In this document: positions 1 to 20,722 of the stretch, piece after piece
Layout: every line of letters begins with the position of its first letter
Numbering within the stretch: the first letter of the stretch is position 1
IMG/VR virus record: IMGVR_UViG_3300050014_001138
Span: 1 to 20,739 of that record
Reading direction: 5' to 3' (one strand)
Origin: a virus
DNA length: 20,739 nt
Position numbers and translations under genes: made by a program
The notes under the pieces: generated by a model
The model's database searches: none
What the model saw: only the letters and a program-made list of their open reading frames with translations
What the model was told of the DNA's origin: nothing

Positions 1-975
1 CCAGCAATACCTGTTGAAGAAATAATTCAAAATGAAGTTAATCGAAGATTAGAGGAAGCTTTAAAAGAGAAAGAAGGCGTTGAACCGCCAGAACTGGAAC
101 CAATTAAGGAACAGGAGCCAGAACCTATTAAGGATGAGTCTGAACCAGAGATTATTCCAGAACCTAGAAAGGAAATCATTATTGAGGATTTATTACCATC
201 TCGAGAAGATCAATTAACGGGTTTAAAAAATGCCATTGTAAATAACATCCAACAGAAGGCCTCTCCTAATGAAGAAAATCCCCTTATTGGCGAAGGTGGT
301 GTTCAAATTGTAAGACCCCCGGTTGTTATTAATATTGGGCCGGAAAATCAGGAAGAAGCAAATGCTGAATACGCAAAAAGTCTTGATCCTGAAGTTCGAA
401 TTGGTGAAGGCGGGATACAGGTTTTAAAAGATGCCCATTCTTATGATGCAAAAGGTAACCCATTAGAAGTTGTTGAAGTAATCAGGGAAAGACCAAAACC
501 AGCAGAACCTACCGATGAGGAGTTGGAAGAAGAAGCTAAACAATATGAAGATCAATTAGATGAAGAAGCAAGCCAATATATGGATATACATGATGCTTCT
601 GTAAATTTAAATGATGCTCTTAAAAATGGTCAAATTAGTCTTCTTCCAATAATGGAGGATCTTCAGAAAAAATACGAAAGTAATAATATACCCATTGAAG
701 ATAAAAAAGCTTTGATTAATGCATTGGAAGCTATTAAACAACCTGCTACAACAATTTATACAAATCCTCCAGCTGATGCAATTCCAGATGAGGTAGCAAA
801 AGAAACCATCATTCCTAATGCAAATATTATTTCTTTGGAAAACATCAAGCCGGTCAATAAAGTTCAGGGGTGGCATTTTATGAAGGAATATGTTGATGAA
901 GCTGGCAATATCTTTGAAAAAGGAAAATATGTAGGAAATGTAAAAAATGACCCTCAGAGATTAAAAAAAGCTTAG
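1..975 (+). CDS. Acidic Pro/Glu-rich phage protein, 3' part (zero frame)
   Basis: The frame is open from the first base to a TAG at 973-975, so the start lies left of the window and 324 residues are visible. The protein is highly charged, with Glu/Pro-rich stretches in the first 60 residues (repeated PEP, EPE, KDE patterns) that read as disordered or extended. A short motif occurs twice, IGEGGVQIV near residue 96 and IGEGGIQVL near residue 135, which suggests a small internal duplication. The last third is Asp/Glu-rich and probably helical. I do not recognise the family. Its position beside genes that look like virion components suggests a structural or assembly role, but that is inference. 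The zero-frame stop directly follows a seven-A run that looks like a -1 slip site, so this may be only the short form of a longer protein. The plus-strand direction matches the following three genes. Confidence 0.85.
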   Translation, partial: PAIPVEEIIQNEVNRRLEEALKEKEGVEPPELEPIKEQEPEPIKDESEPEIIPEPRKEIIIEDLLPSREDQLTGLKNAIVNNIQQKASPNEENPLIGEGGVQIVRPPVVINIGPENQEEANAEYAKSLDPEVRIGEGGIQVLKDAHSYDAKGNPLEVVEVIRERPKPAEPTDEELEEEAKQYEDQLDEEASQYMDIHDASVNLNDALKNGQISLLPIMEDLQKKYESNNIPIEDKKALINALEAIKQPATTIYTNPPADAIPDEVAKETIIPNANIISLENIKPVNKVQGWHFMKEYVDEAGNIFEKGKYVGNVKNDPQRLKKA

Positions 976-1012
976 GAGCGAGCACTGAAGGGGATGAAAT
1001 CGTACCCGCTCC
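963..1012 (+). other. Putative programmed -1 ribosomal frameshift signal
   Basis: Codons here read TTA AAA AAA GCT TAG. The heptamer A AAA AAA (963-969) sits in the correct X XXY YYZ phase for -1 slippage, and both tRNAs would re-pair perfectly after slipping. After a 5-nt spacer (GCTTA, 970-974) comes a perfect 6-bp stem, GGAGCG (975-980) with CGCTCC (1007-1012), enclosing a 26-nt loop. That spacing is typical of a stimulatory stem or pseudoknot. The -1 frame is then open for 100 more codons without any ATG, GTG or TTG. The main alternative is a missing A in the homopolymer, through mutation or sequencing error, because one extra A would join the frames directly. Confidence 0.6.
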
Positions 1013-1271
1013 GCAAATTGAACCAGAAAATCCCGTTGAAGAATTAAATAAGCCCTCTCCCGGTAAAGAACTTATCGATAGGATAAAGAGGGAAGATTCT
1101 CTTAAGAGGGAAGCTGAGAAAGCTGAAAAGCTTGAAGATTATGCTTCGGTAATTATAGATGGAGTTGAAGTTATAGATGCAAAGGCAGTTCCAAAGAAGC
1201 ATGAACCTGCAAAAATAAATAAATTTGGGATACCCGAGCCAAAGGAAAGATTAAGCTGGGATAAAATTTAG
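969..1271 (+). CDS. Frameshift extension of the acidic protein (-1 frame)
   Basis: This frame is open from just after a TGA at 948-950 to a TAG at 1269-1271. It contains no ATG, GTG or TTG, so it can hardly be translated on its own. Read from the slip site it adds 100 residues, starting SLGASTEGDEIVP and ending ERLSWDKI. The composition matches the upstream gene: Pro/Glu-rich at first (PAPQIEPENP), then a Lys/Glu-rich helical stretch (RIKREDSLKREAEKAEK), then a short ordered-looking tail. Codon use looks like real coding sequence, in contrast to the two other plus frames, which carry early stops. The joined product would have at least 423 residues in the window. It either encodes the long form of a frameshifted virion protein or is the displaced 3' end of a gene broken by a one-base deletion. 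No function is recognised. Confidence 0.65.
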   Translation, partial: SLGASTEGDEIVPAPQIEPENPVEELNKPSPGKELIDRIKREDSLKREAEKAEKLEDYASVIIDGVEVIDAKAVPKKHEPAKINKFGIPEPKERLSWDKI

Positions 1272-4495: not shown

Positions 4496-5311
4496 GTCCT
4501 TTAACCAAGGTACCTCAAATTTGTGTATCTTAGTTTCTAATTTCCTTACATATACGTGATTTTCCGGAACGTTGAATAGCATAATAGCATCATCTCCTTC
4601 TTTCCATGTTTCCCATCTTTTTACAGCTTCGTCTATTAATTCCTTTTTGAAATGATTTTTTGCACTCCAGTTGACAAGTTTCTTACGAATATCTCGTCTA
4701 ATCCAAGCTGCATGACCCATTCGGATTTCTTCATCTTCAAAGACATAAGTTCCCACATTAAGCGGATTTAGGATTCTTCTTGTTGGATCTGTTGGTCCAG
4801 GAGCAGAACTTTCATAGGTATAGTTAAAGAAAGTTGAGTGAATGAAGGGAACAAAAGGACGAAATGGATATACTAAATAATGATCAAAATCCCTATAATA
4901 ATTTACATAGGAACAATAAGTAATGGGCCAACCCATTTCATCAATTTTATTTTTAGCATATCTAAACTGATCCTTATCATAAAATTCATCAGCATCAATA
5001 TTTAAAATATGAGAATATCCTTTAGCTCTCATAAGATTAATTCCCATGTTTCTTTTTTCACATTCCTGATTTCTGGAATAAGCACCAAAGTCTGGTTTAA
5101 ATTCGATCAATTCGTCTACAAGACCTAAACTTTTTAGTCTTTCCAATTCTGCCATATCTTTTCTATCCATTGGATTTTTCCAATATGATTTCTTTTGATA
5201 TATTGCAGCTACCCAGTCAATTTGATCTCGTATTTCTAAAATTAGATCATGTAAGAGTTCTGAGGAGTCAAACGCGTTTATCGTAATGCCGAGCTTTTTA
5301 ATGTGAGCCAT
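4478..5311 (-). CDS. Glycosyltransferase, family-2-like (GT-A fold)
   Basis: This 277-residue protein resembles glycan-modifying family-2-like transferases. It starts with a beta strand (KKLGITINAFDSS). It has the pattern R-N-Q-E-C-E-K-R-N at residues 80-88, and a hydrophobic strand ending in the metal- and nucleotide-sugar-binding D-A-D-E-F motif (D106, D108). These are the usual order for this fold (aR...kRN..l..a...G..~il.~DaDEf). The second half is aromatic-rich with a HAAW segment that probably binds the acceptor. Substrate is unknown. In phages such enzymes may glycosylate virion proteins or DNA, or change host surface sugars. Its ATG lies inside the last 14 nt of the upstream GIY-YIG gene, so translation is probably coupled to it. 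Transcription ends at the terminator overlapping its last codons. Confidence 0.75.
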   Translation of the reverse strand: MAHIKKLGITINAFDSSELLHDLILEIRDQIDWVAAIYQKKSYWKNPMDRKDMAELERLKSLGLVDELIEFKPDFGAYSRNQECEKRNMGINLMRAKGYSHILNIDADEFYDKDQFRYAKNKIDEMGWPITYCSYVNYYRDFDHYLVYPFRPFVPFIHSTFFNYTYESSAPGPTDPTRRILNPLNVGTYVFEDEEIRMGHAAWIRRDIRKKLVNWSAKNHFKKELIDEAVKRWETWKEGDDAIMLFNVPENHVYVRKLETKIHKFEVPWLKDKKEGA

Positions 5312-5996
5312 CTTTCTTTAGTTTTGGTTTTTTTAAATTGTTTTTTCTTTCTTCCGAAAATTTTATACCCCAATTTGGATGATTTTCACCACTTAATTTT
5401 TCACTTATTAAATTAATGGATTCTTGGGTATGATGTTTTCCCTTTATCCAGGGTATTTTATCTTTATGTGAATCGCTTTGTTTTTTAATAAAAATTTCAT
5501 ATCGTTTGACCCCTTCTTCTAATCCATATATTTCAATTAGTTCTTTTTTAAATCCCTTTCCCTTTCTAGAAGTAGTTGTGCCCAATTTAGCAAGTCTTTG
5601 ATTTTCTTTCATCCGATTTGCTTGCTCTATTCCATATAATTCTTCATATGTTTTCCCTTTTTGCCATTCTCTCTGTTTCTTTTTTGTATCTTCAGATTGT
5701 TCAGCGCCAGAAAAACCTATGCCCCCTTTTGGACATAAATTATATCCATTGGGGCAAAGAGTTTGAAATTTTTCTATATACTCAGCTTCTTTATGTAAGG
5801 CATCTTCTCGATCTTTACATTCCTCCAATATTTCTCTTTTAAAATTTTTCTTTCCTTCTTTTTTTACAGATTTGAGAAAATATCTGCCGCTTCCAATATA
5901 ATTATCCTCAATGTTATCAGTGGCATGCGAACCGACATATTGTTTTCCAGAGATTAAATTTGTAGTAATATAGACGTAATTAAATTCCCTAGCCAT
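5298..5996 (-). CDS. GIY-YIG homing endonuclease with NUMOD-type tail
   Basis: The 232-residue protein begins with a GIY-YIG nuclease domain: YVYITT at residues 7-12, YVGSH at 20-24 and YIGSG at 33-37, then an acidic residue within EAEYIEKF (69-77) fitting the catalytic Glu, and GYNLCPKGG (85-92), a motif typical of Seg-like phage enzymes. The rest looks like DNA-binding modules. Two copies of a Y-G-x-E-x-x-x-x-R helix occur at ~121 and ~157, and a NUMOD3-like SGENHPNWG at 202-210. Such enzymes cut DNA lacking the gene and so spread between related phages. It stands free between the small membrane-protein gene and the glycosyltransferase gene and overlaps the latter by 14 nt. A TATAAATA-containing element lies 18 nt upstream of the ATG, suggesting its own late promoter. 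Confidence 0.9.
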   Translation of the reverse strand: MAREFNYVYITTNLISGKQYVGSHATDNIEDNYIGSGRYFLKSVKKEGKKNFKREILEECKDREDALHKEAEYIEKFQTLCPNGYNLCPKGGIGFSGAEQSEDTKKKQREWQKGKTYEELYGIEQANRMKENQRLAKLGTTTSRKGKGFKKELIEIYGLEEGVKRYEIFIKKQSDSHKDKIPWIKGKHHTQESINLISEKLSGENHPNWGIKFSEERKNNLKKPKLKKDGSH

Positions 5997-12395: not shown

Positions 12396-12836
12396 TTAAG
12401 GTTTCTGAAATAATTTAAATTTCTGAAAAGCTTCTTCGATTGTATCGAATTCATAAAGTATGGATGAAAAATAAACTAAATATTTTAATCCATTAAAAGT
12501 GAGATATGGATAAGGGCTTTTCTTTCCAAATAATGAATTCTCTCTATTAGTTTCTTGAGTAACCCATCGTAAATTTTCGATATTATTATTTAACCTATTT
12601 CTATCTCTGTGATCGACTTCCGGATAATTGTTGGGATTTTCTATAAAAGTTATTGCTACCGTTCGATGAATTTTTATTACATGACCTTTATTATTTTGGG
12701 ACAAAGTAACTTGATAATATTTTCCTCTTTTAGTTATTTGAGGTTTTAATATTCTTCCAAATTTTATATTTCGAACATTTCCAAAATTGCTAATTTCATA
12801 ATTTACAAATCCCTTAATTGGTAAATATTTTTCCAT
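12396..12836 (-). CDS. HNH homing endonuclease with NUMOD4 domain
   Basis: A 146-residue free-standing homing endonuclease. Residues 7-24 are the NUMOD4 signature (IKGFVNYEISNFGNVRNI). It is followed by the strand region before the nuclease (YYQVTLSQNNKGHVIKIHRTVA), with H57 in the first metal-site strand. The HNH core is then V-D75-H76-R-D...N83-N-N-I-E-N-L-R-W (74-91). After that come the usual TQETNREN helix and a short C-terminal domain. Such genes spread by cutting allelic sites that lack them. It sits between the chaperone-like gene and the tape measure, two genes normally adjacent, so it is probably a later insertion. A hairpin terminator and a TATAAATA box (12844-12851, minus strand) lie just before the start, so it seems to have its own signals. 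Confidence 0.9.
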   Translation of the reverse strand: MEKYLPIKGFVNYEISNFGNVRNIKFGRILKPQITKRGKYYQVTLSQNNKGHVIKIHRTVAITFIENPNNYPEVDHRDRNRLNNNIENLRWVTQETNRENSLFGKKSPYPYLTFNGLKYLVYFSSILYEFDTIEEAFQKFKLFQKP

Positions 12837-17652: not shown

Positions 17653-19677
17653 TTATCGTCTACCTCCCCACATTGTCGAGCCCGAACTAGAACCAGAATA
17701 CCTTGGTTTGTTAGCATTCTGATATATTTTTTGTAATTGAGCCATCTCATTTCCAGAAACATCATCATTATTATAGAGATTATGGAAAGAATCATCGCTT
17801 AATTCTTCCGGGGTTTCTATAGGAGTTTTAAGAAGCTCAGAAATATATCTTTTTATTGGGGAATCATCTAAATCCTGAAGAAAGTCATATAGCCAATCAC
17901 CATATTCGGGTTCTTCATAAAGTCTTGCAGTATTAATACATGCCATTGCAGCATCGTCATGTTTTGCTATACCCTTCCAAGAAAGTTTTACCTTACCAAA
18001 AGCTCCAAATTCTCCAGTAGTTTTTGAATCATTCGGAATTAGGCATTTAGTTTCGACTAATTTTCTTGCAAGTTTGCAGAAGAAGTCTTTATCTTGTTTT
18101 TGGCGGAATCCTGCTTTTCTTCTTGGGGGTTTTTCTCCTGGAACTGGAGCCGTGTGATATGAATGCATAACGCATCCTTCAAAATAACCATCATGATCTG
18201 CAAATTTATCAAGAAACCTCTTACCATTAAAGTTCATTTCTGTAACTAATTTGCAGAAATCCCCGCCAAATTGGTCAAATACAAGTGCCTTGTTAACTTG
18301 AGCCATAACTTCCTCATCTCCATAATTGTCAAAGAATATTCCAACCTGTCTCATTCGAAACATATTTTGGATTTTTCTTTCATCTTTTCTGAGTTTACGA
18401 AGTTTTACCATAGATTTAGGTTCTACTTTGTAAATAGCGGTAACATTAAAGTCATTATCCTTCTTTTCCTCATCCTCATCTTTTCCATCGGCAATATCAT
18501 TGGATAAAACAAAACGATCCCTTTTATCAAAACTATTATTTGGATCAAATCCGGGATGCCAAAGTAATTTGTCTCGATAAAGATCTTCAGACAAAGCGGA
18601 TTTTTCTAATGGATGATATTTATATTTTTTCTCATTCTTTTTAAGCCATCTCATTTGATTTGGTGTTAAAAGAAGATTACTTTTACGGTCAAATAAAAGT
18701 TCATATTCCTGAGCAAATTCTTCTTCCCCAAAGTTTGCTTTGATTTCTTCCATCCAAGCATCATCGTGGCCAGGAACTTCCCAATAGTCGACTCTCTTAA
18801 ATTTAAAAGTGTTTTTTCCTGTATTAGCTTTATCCCATATTTCATAGAATAAGTTATCCATGCCGTCGGGCGTAGATGAGATAATACATTGGGAAACTAA
18901 TGAAGAGGATAAGGTAGGATAAACAGATCTCCAGAATGATTTAACAAGTTTCTGGTTGATGTGAGCAAACTCATCGATGTATAATACGTGGATGGTAAAA
19001 CCGATAGATGCTGTTTTGGTGGTAGCTTGAGAAGTAAGCATACATCCATTATCGAGACGAAGACCTAAAGCCCCGATGGATTTTATACCAGGCTTCATAA
19101 AGAATGGTAGTCCTCGGAATACATCAACAACCTTTGCTACAATTTCTGTAGTAGTGGCCTGTTTGTTAGCAAGAATAAGTAAGTTTCTATCTGTGTGAAA
19201 GCAAAGATACCAAGCAAAGAAAGCTGAAATAGTTGTAGTATTGTGGGACAAAATCCCGTTTGAATAAAATCGGTGTTCTGGTGAATTAACCGTTACATCA
19301 AACATTGAGATTTTTTGTGAATATTTTTTTATATTAATAACTCTTGATAATCCCCTTTTTGTTTGGATACAATTCCCTACTTTTAAATTCTTAATAAATA
19401 CCTCATTCATTAATTTATTAAAAACTATGTGATTATCTGCCCCCTCTAGATACATGCCATTTTCTAAATCCACCCTCCATAGAGTATAAGGCTGGGTTTT
19501 ATGGATTTGAGAAATGGGTTTAAAACCCATATCAGTTTCAATTTCTAAATTCTCTATAGATATGCTTTCAATAATTTTCTTACTATTATCATTTTCATCT
19601 AAATTTAAATGACGATATTCCCATTTTTCGATAAGTTGAATTAAAAATAAGATAAGATATTTAAGGGTTTTTTTCAT
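17653..19677 (-). CDS. terL: Terminase large subunit, C-terminal part with N-terminal split-intein piece
   Basis: A 674-residue protein in two parts. Residues 1-146 are intein (see separate entry). Residues 147-674 are a T4 gp17-like DNA-packaging motor lacking its start: TTTISAFFAWYLCFH directly continues a Walker A motif whose '...GK' must lie on another gene. Walker B is VLYIDE (D235, E236) and the coupling motif is STPDGMDNLF (268-277). The RNase H-like nuclease has D394 (SNDIADG), E480 (TEMNFNG) and D575 (KHDDAAM), fitting the three metal-binding acids of gp17. The last ~60 residues are low-complexity. Without the upstream part the protein cannot bind ATP, so trans-splicing is required. 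The ATG lies inside the last 17 nt of the upstream endonuclease gene. It precedes sheath and tube as in T4. Confidence 0.92.
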   Translation of the reverse strand: MKKTLKYLILFLIQLIEKWEYRHLNLDENDNSKKIIESISIENLEIETDMGFKPISQIHKTQPYTLWRVDLENGMYLEGADNHIVFNKLMNEVFIKNLKVGNCIQTKRGLSRVINIKKYSQKISMFDVTVNSPEHRFYSNGILSHNTTTISAFFAWYLCFHTDRNLLILANKQATTTEIVAKVVDVFRGLPFFMKPGIKSIGALGLRLDNGCMLTSQATTKTASIGFTIHVLYIDEFAHINQKLVKSFWRSVYPTLSSSLVSQCIISSTPDGMDNLFYEIWDKANTGKNTFKFKRVDYWEVPGHDDAWMEEIKANFGEEEFAQEYELLFDRKSNLLLTPNQMRWLKKNEKKYKYHPLEKSALSEDLYRDKLLWHPGFDPNNSFDKRDRFVLSNDIADGKDEDEEKKDNDFNVTAIYKVEPKSMVKLRKLRKDERKIQNMFRMRQVGIFFDNYGDEEVMAQVNKALVFDQFGGDFCKLVTEMNFNGKRFLDKFADHDGYFEGCVMHSYHTAPVPGEKPPRRKAGFRQKQDKDFFCKLARKLVETKCLIPNDSKTTGEFGAFGKVKLSWKGIAKHDDAAMACINTARLYEEPEYGDWLYDFLQDLDDSPIKRYISELLKTPIETPEELSDDSFHNLYNNDDVSGNEMAQLQKIYQNANKPRYSGSSSGSTMWGGRR
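19240..19677 (-). other. C-terminal piece of a split intein (IntC), atypically long
   Basis: Residues 1-146 of the terminase piece. Residues 44-58 (LEIETDMGFKPISQI) match the strand region following intein block A. Residues 77-86 (LEGADNHIVF) are block B with its His83. Residues 128-141 (DVTVNSPEHRFYSN...) are block F, and GILSHN (141-146) is block G with penultimate His and final Asn146. The next residue, Thr147, is the +1 nucleophile and is also the Thr of the Walker A GKT. Block A with its Cys1 is absent, so the N-intein is short and lies on a gene to the right of the window. I recall the AceL-TerL intein from Antarctic lake metagenomes as having the same early split in the same protein. 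Residues 1-43 would connect block A to the rest. Confidence 0.9.
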
Positions 19678-20722
19678 AAATAAAATCTATACATTTTTTT
19701 ACAGTATTTTCCGGATTTTTCTTATATTCATTTTCCCAAATATGCAAAATCTCATATCCGGCATTTTTCAATATGTAATCCCTATCGTATTCTCTTTTTT
19801 GGTTTTCGGGGGTATTTCTATGCCAGTAAACCCCATCGAATTCAATTATCTTATTTTTATCTAATATAATAAAATCCGGGCATAAAACTTTATTACTTAA
19901 AATTAATCTATATTCATTGTTTATATCATTATCCACACAAGTTGCATAAAAAATTTGTTTAAAATCTTTTTTAATTTTAAGGTCTAGTGTTTTAAATAAT
20001 ATTTGAGAAATATTTGAATAATTTTGTTTTTTATAATTTTTTAACCATTTTTCCTGTCTCCCTCTCCATCTTTCTAACCCTTTTTCCTCCCCGTATTTTT
20101 CTATACATTTTTTTAACGAAAAAGTTGTTTGCCTTTCTTTTAACTTTTCTTTTGCTTCTTCTTCAGAAAATCCTCTTTTTAAATAATATTCTAAAGTGGT
20201 ATCAAATTCTCTTTCGCTTAATGACCCTTTTAAAAATTTTTTATAATCATTTTCGGATAAATTTCTTTTTTTATAAAATTCTTTGCTAAATGGGGATAAT
20301 TCTTTTCTTTTTTGTTCAGACATATTATTTTTATGGACAGGATTTTTTTCTCCTTTTACCATTTCAGAAAACATTTTTCTATATTTCTCTTCCTTCATGT
20401 GTTTACCCGAATTAACAGATATATTTTTTATATCATTTTCTGTACAAACAGGGGAATCGGGAAATTCTTTCCTATAATCTTTTATAGTTTTATCAGGATG
20501 AGAAAATTTTATGTGTTGGCCGTATATTCTCGTAACTTTTTGACCGCACCATTTGCATATGATATAGTCTTTTCCTTCTATACCAGATAAATATTTTTCC
20601 CTCTTTTTATCTGAATAAGTTTTGCTGTATTTGTCTTTGCATTTTTGAGAACACATTTTAACTCTTCCATCTGATGTAGAAAATTCTTTGTTACAAATAA
20701 TACATTTTTTTATAGTTTCCAT
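19661..20722 (-). CDS. Vsr-like (EDxHD-type) free-standing homing endonuclease
   Basis: A 353-residue modular protein. Residues 7-28 hold a Cys4 zinc motif (C7-x2-C10, C24-x3-C28). Residues 56-75 hold a second one (C56-x2-C59, H70-x4-H75) followed by KTIKDYRKEFPDSP. Then come NUMOD3-like GEKNPVHK (124-131), two further helical segments and a KYGEEKGLERWRGRQEKW helix (209-226). The C-terminal nuclease has P-D283-F, E294-F-D-G-x-Y-W-H301, then R-D315 and GYEILHIWENE, the order seen in Vsr-like nucleases. This family was described with 'fractured' phage genes in which such an enzyme lies between the halves of a split-intein gene, and here it lies directly before the terminase C part. The gene ends with 17 nt inside the next gene; an AT-rich leader (TATAAAATATATATT) precedes the ATG. 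Confidence 0.88.
   Translation of the reverse strand: METIKKCIICNKEFSTSDGRVKMCSQKCKDKYSKTYSDKKREKYLSGIEGKDYIICKWCGQKVTRIYGQHIKFSHPDKTIKDYRKEFPDSPVCTENDIKNISVNSGKHMKEEKYRKMFSEMVKGEKNPVHKNNMSEQKRKELSPFSKEFYKKRNLSENDYKKFLKGSLSEREFDTTLEYYLKRGFSEEEAKEKLKERQTTFSLKKCIEKYGEEKGLERWRGRQEKWLKNYKKQNYSNISQILFKTLDLKIKKDFKQIFYATCVDNDINNEYRLILSNKVLCPDFIILDKNKIIEFDGVYWHRNTPENQKREYDRDYILKNAGYEILHIWENEYKKNPENTVKKCIDFIYEKNP

Follow-up and report, generated by a model that had tools for sequence, protein, structure and literature searches.

Results

The window analysed here, a stretch of 20,739 nucleotides from a virus (IMG/VR record IMGVR_UViG_3300050014_001138), opens inside a gene for a membrane protein whose start lies outside it. 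Read from a second IMG/VR contig, IMGVR_UViG_3300050015_000940 (L013), the ATG (L013:4001) lies 519 nt ahead of the first base of the window. Over 4,039 nt that contig matches the window base for base, and the matching part takes in a run of seven A's near the 3' end of the gene; the contig possibly comes from the same sample, which makes its independence from the window uncertain, and the diverged relatives described below are free of that doubt. At this run the zero frame reads ...AGA TTA AAA AAA GCT TAG (963-975), with A963 to A969 in phase as A AAA AAA. The initial annotation had pointed to a zero-frame stop at 973-975 right after this heptamer, to a -1 frame open to 1271 without a start codon, and to a GC-rich 6-bp stem beginning five bases past the heptamer, and all of these are found in place (Table 1), with not one ATG, GTG or TTG in the 102 codons of the -1 extension. 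Likewise, the two reading frames predict the two protein forms it had named, one ending KKA and the other 99 residues longer, with FGIP...WDKI at the close of the added part; the -1 frame ends at TAG 1269-1271, for a predicted long form of 596 aa, and the transframe peptide would lie in the region around RLKKSLGASTEGDEIVPAPQ. Counting both strands, the window contains 19 A7 runs, of which that at 963-969 alone is followed 4-9 nt downstream by a GC-rich stem of at least 6 bp. Inspection by eye revealed no Shine-Dalgarno-like stimulator upstream of the heptamer.

Table 1. Features of the shift region in window coordinates
Feature	Position	Strand	Remarks
Zero-frame ORF, 3' part of the membrane protein gene	1..975	+	Short form 497 aa, ends KKA at TAG 973-975
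GWH module GWHFMKEYVDEAGNIFEKGKY, short conserved stretch before the shift site	868..930	+	In most A7-site relatives; lacking in L121 and L023
Slippery heptamer A AAA AAA, zero-frame phase	963..969	+	Exactly 7 A's then G in 16/16 distinct internal sites
-1-frame extension KKSLGAST...LSWDKI	963..1271	+	Shift is the sole access; purifying selection in the -1 frame; 61% identical in L011
5-nt spacer GCTTA	970..974	+	Length 5 in 16/16 sites
Zero-frame stop TAG just past the shift site	973..975	+	TAG here or nearby in 15/16 sites
Stem S1, 5' arm GGAGCG	975..980	+	Compensatory changes in relatives, 7/9 pairs
Possible pseudoknot strand S2, loop, GGGAT	991..995	+	Complementary to 1030-1034
Stem S1, 3' arm CGCTCC	1007..1012	+	Compensatory changes; 60 nt after the heptamer fold at -12.3 kcal/mol
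Possible pseudoknot strand S2, downstream, ATCCC	1030..1034	+	Complementary to 991-995
Conserved C-terminal motif FGIPEPKERLSWDKI	1224..1268	+	WDKI- or NFDRI-ending versions in nearly all close relatives

Within the conserved N-terminal 158 residues of the protein, four hydrophobic segments are modelled as helices, and this four-transmembrane N-terminus, which is encoded outside the window, is common to 23 aligned relatives. The remainder is acidic and rich in Pro and Glu, with a long charged tail that is mostly of low confidence in the model; the charge distribution suggests that the tail is cytoplasmic. The label of a probable virion protein, proposed in the initial annotation, is unsupported, given the four predicted transmembrane helices at the N-terminus. 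No Pfam or PHROG family matches the membrane protein. Membership of DUF2637 (PF10935), suggested by a weak Foldseek match, was rejected, as the Pfam model had no match in the 23 and 22 members scanned at E values up to 1 and 10. Since the AlphaFold models are of low confidence (mean pLDDT 65.0 and 68.7), we draw no function from the folds. The GWH module listed in Table 1 occurs also in a separate cysteine-rich, zinc-ribbon-like protein of other phages (L002, L003 and L004), which suggests a shared interaction module.

The gene is followed by one for a 534-aa protein, which is no tape measure, and preceded by one for a short protein with one hydrophobic segment; both neighbours recur in the relatives L022 and L033. 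The tail sheath is closest to those of Prevotella Lak phages (44%), and the window appears to come from a large relative of the Lak megaphages. All 17 other tabulated genes of the window end in TAA, with neither TAG nor TGA among their stops. On the minus strand, the large terminase gene is apparently broken up (17653-20722): at the start of the ORF at 17653-19677 there seems to be an intein's C-terminal half, whose final HN stands ahead of TTTISAFF, and this ORF is preceded by a separate DUF559-like nuclease ORF (19661-20722), a layout that resembles a gene fractured by a split intein, the Pfam intein match being weak (E 0.019). Two further minus-strand ORFs are homing-endonuclease-like, at 5298-5996 (GIY-YIG with NUMOD3) and 12396-12836 (HNH with NUMOD4).

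A profile of the N-terminal membrane domain, run against viral contigs, matched 276 related stretches, the best 80 of which were kept; a tighter profile yielded 36 loci, and a search with a profile of the extension added one more. In the annotated phage collection, the single relative was a distant one, LR756500.1, which carries no annotation. The extension itself matched one clear diverged relative (L011/L024), 61% identical and with the same heptamer, spacer and stem. In total, 16 distinct internal sites were recovered (the window, W, and L019, L022, L023, L024, L025, L030, L031, L033, L034, L035, L118, L119, L121, L128 and L135), and in every one of them a G comes right after the A7, the spacer is 5 nt long and the stem begins GG. 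All 16 heptamers follow the X XXZ ZZN pattern of bacterial -1 frameshift sites, in zero-frame phase. One site, L024, has no zero-frame stop, and there the zero frame continues for about 55 codons. Across the sites the stems themselves are diverse in sequence (GGAGCGAGC/GCTCGCTCC, GGGACCGGC/GCCGGTCCC, GGAACTTCT/AGAAGTTCC and GGGGTAG/CTACCCC).

Covariation was analysed in 14 distinct stems (L135 left out), with arms chosen by eye from predicted folds, a choice that inflates the percentage of paired cells and from which covariation should suffer less. Paired cells made up 92%, against 70% in shuffled sets; cells changed on both sides numbered 34, against a shuffled mean of 11.6, a count that none of 500 shuffles reached; and the covariation score was 0.726 against 0.278, with none of 500 shuffles matching either the score or the paired percentage. 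Sliding the partner arm by 1-3 nt abolished the covariation signal. In the same 14 stems, neither the number of pairs altered in both arms (116/500) nor the number of further pair types (86/500) went beyond the shuffles. The compensating stem, at 5 nt, falls within the 5-8 nt after the heptamer that characterize the downstream structures of bacterial -1 sites. A minus-strand intrinsic terminator was considered and rejected: its T7 would sit 5 nt past the stem and not directly after it, and the outer seven pairs hold 5 cells of plus-strand G-U against 1 of A-C, an excess of G-U that favours plus-strand RNA. A pseudoknot between the loop and the downstream sequence (S2) may possibly form at the shift site. 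Complementary patches like S2 are seen in 14/16 sites; a permutation of own versus cross pairings over all sites was not significant, with 5221/20000 reaching the observed value, and significance was seen only in a subset picked afterwards (229/20000).

The initial annotation had named a lost A as the main alternative, in which a gene that in truth runs in one frame through eight A's appears split, either through a mistake of sequencing or assembly or through a mutation that recently inactivated it. Homopolymers are error-prone, and three relatives (L015, L026 and L027) do encode the tail in a single frame; nonetheless, the comparisons with relatives that it had named as possible refutations did not refute the frameshift, and exactly seven A's stand in the identical record and in 15 diverged relatives, together with the conserved spacer and the covarying stem. 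Retention of the slip signal in at least 15 diverged relatives indicates that it is selected and is no sequencing error. With the compensatory changes in the stem and the evolution of the -1 frame, to which we now turn, the lost base is excluded in practice, and we assign it a negligible likelihood.

The downstream part, whose absence from relatives had been raised as a possibility, is present in the -1 frame in the 15 diverged relatives. Between W and L024, dN is 0.27 and dS 2.05 in the -1 frame (dN/dS ~0.13, an approximate ratio since dS is near saturation at such divergence), the zero-frame values being 0.41 and 0.38 (dN/dS ~1). For five other pairs, too, the -1 frame is the only one with dN below dS or the one in which this is most marked, and a position-3 excess appears there alone. 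On these substitution patterns, the extension is judged to be under protein-level selection in the -1 frame, and the zero frame past the TAG is not; a conserved -1-frame coding sequence lies where the shift would lead.

The same results bear on two further accounts. The downstream part might be an independent gene that has a start of its own, or noncoding, and an annotation built on an ORF list would indeed omit it; an internal GTG in L033 moreover gives an ORF of 105 aa. Yet the extensions of L022 and L034, like that of W, contain no ATG, GTG or TTG, the search with the extension profile matched the extension only where it is joined to the membrane protein gene, and dN/dS is ~0.13 in the -1 frame; we regard this account as very improbable. 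The second account would have TAG read as a sense codon in this phage, leaving no true zero-frame stop at 973-975. TAG encodes Gln in Lak phages, those closest by tail sheath, and the exclusive use of TAA by the other 17 tabulated genes is in keeping with such a code. The standard code, however, leaves those genes unbroken, including large ones of 1113 and 914 aa; a TAG also closes the long form, at the conserved -WDKI end where relatives carry TAA or TGA; the window yielded no tRNA gene; and the zero-frame sequence beyond the TAG lacks protein-level selection. A sense TAG here is thus scarcely credible.

Several relatives reach the tail by another route, and versions of the C-terminal motif are attained across the family through a shift at A7, a shift at A9, both, or in frame. 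In nine loci (L014, L016, L018, L020, L021, L029, L037, L108 and L114), a tail end of the KFGIPI..GEH.NFDRI type lies in the -1 frame after a run of exactly nine A's, with a zero-frame stop soon after and, L020 excepted, mostly no strong stem. L023, L031 and L034 carry an A9 downstream of the A7 site, and their tail end is reached only after two -1 shifts; these three seem to need both shifts in series. The tail ends of L021, L031, L034 and L114 were assigned by eye, the automatic search for the end motif being too lax there. In L015, L026 and L027 the tail is in frame; L015 keeps the A9 run, but its phase is such that one extra A would bring an early stop. No A9 site is present in the window. 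In three more remote relatives (L038, L039 and L082), the C-terminus that lies in the -1 frame past an A9 is a different one, about 30 residues long with RPGVNF or RPGVNA at its end.

Discussion

We interpret this locus as a site of programmed -1 ribosomal frameshifting that yields a short and a long form of a membrane protein, and judge the probability of this reading to be roughly 0.92; the conserved A7 site, the covarying stem and the protein-level selection in the -1 frame all support the frameshift proposed in the initial annotation. We infer that the slip is ribosomal, and the efficiency and purpose of the slip belong likewise to the inferred parts of the reading. Ribosomes would read Lys-Lys at A AAA AAA while the stem 5 nt downstream holds them up, and both tRNA-Lys would re-pair one base back at the heptamer. 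Those that do not slip would terminate at the TAG and release the short form of 497 aa, ending KKA, and the slipping fraction would remain in the -1 frame and produce the long form of 596 aa with its conserved C-terminal tail. Two heptamers, A_AAA_AAA among them, account for 72% of the heptamers of IS elements, and a stimulatory structure will usually begin 5-8 nt past the heptamer (PMC4066793).

Alternatively, one could envision transcriptional slippage, in which RNA polymerase adds one A at the A7 run so that some mRNAs carry eight A's and encode the long form. A homopolymer is present, and the A9 site of relatives, being mostly stemless, resembles a polymerase slippage site (PMC5009743). 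Such slippage would nevertheless leave the exact 5-nt spacer and the covarying downstream stem unexplained, and the efficient bacterial cases have been described for runs of nine (PMC5009743), whereas the run here is seven in 16/16 sites; we consider this explanation improbable for the A7 site. The A9 site is another matter: A9/T9 runs are efficient polymerase slippage sites, one of which is used by Thermus dnaX (PMC5009743), and for this reason we tentatively regard slippage as transcriptional at A9 and ribosomal at A7. We would give even odds to the broader proposition that a single C-terminal tag is controlled in one family by two devices, a ribosomal one (A7 plus structure) and polymerase slippage at A9, with lineages using one, the other, both in series (giving three nested products) or neither. 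If this is true, the family constitutes a natural series in which ribosomal and transcriptional recoding are interchangeable within one gene.

As for the role of the two forms, we propose that the protein is a membrane tether. The four-transmembrane N-terminus would anchor it in the host inner membrane, the long, mostly disordered tail would be cytoplasmic, and frameshifting might, as a guess, set how many anchors bear a C-terminal docking motif relative to those that lack it. Conservation of the site implies that making both forms matters in the lineage. Since the gene looks split, annotation would miss the long form. The relatives, for their part, offer a natural experiment in which frameshift signals arise, move along the gene and are lost.

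Known phage frameshift genes encode mainly tail chaperones, capsid or tail proteins (PMC5009743, PMC10274946), and the conserved frameshift described here concerns a membrane protein from a large-phage lineage about which little is known. As in lambda G/GT and gene 10 of T7/T3, a -1 shift near the 3' end would give a minor, C-terminally extended form, but those proteins are tail chaperones or capsid proteins, and the present one has four transmembrane helices and no detectable sequence relation to them. A tail assembly chaperone is a soluble protein encoded just before the tape measure; here the protein is a four-transmembrane one and the next gene encodes no tape measure. DUF2637-type phage membrane proteins have a similar four-helix layout (Foldseek E 5e-3, a weak match obtained with a low-confidence model of pLDDT 65), but the aligned members show no Pfam match to them.

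In mechanism the site resembles that of Escherichia coli dnaX, where A_AAA_AAG and a stem-loop combine a Lys-Lys, A-rich heptamer with a similarly spaced downstream stem and where, as here, two products share their N-terminal part; the gene is unrelated, however, its shift yields the shorter product whereas that of the phage would yield the longer, and the phage site has no visible Shine-Dalgarno-like stimulator. The signals of the IS3/IS911 family are likewise A_AAA_AAA, which is common there, or A_AAA_AAG, with stem-loops or pseudoknots (PMC4066793), but they join the parts of a transposase, and the pseudoknot of the phage site is a tentative one. The slippage of Thermus thermophilus dnaX at A9/T9 (PMC5009743) resembles the mostly stemless A9 site of the relatives, in contrast to the site of the window, which has no such run. 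A limited literature search, of partial coverage, found no published report of this gene. The mechanism is thus a known one of the standard bacterial type, and it is the host gene and the two-site arrangement that appear new.
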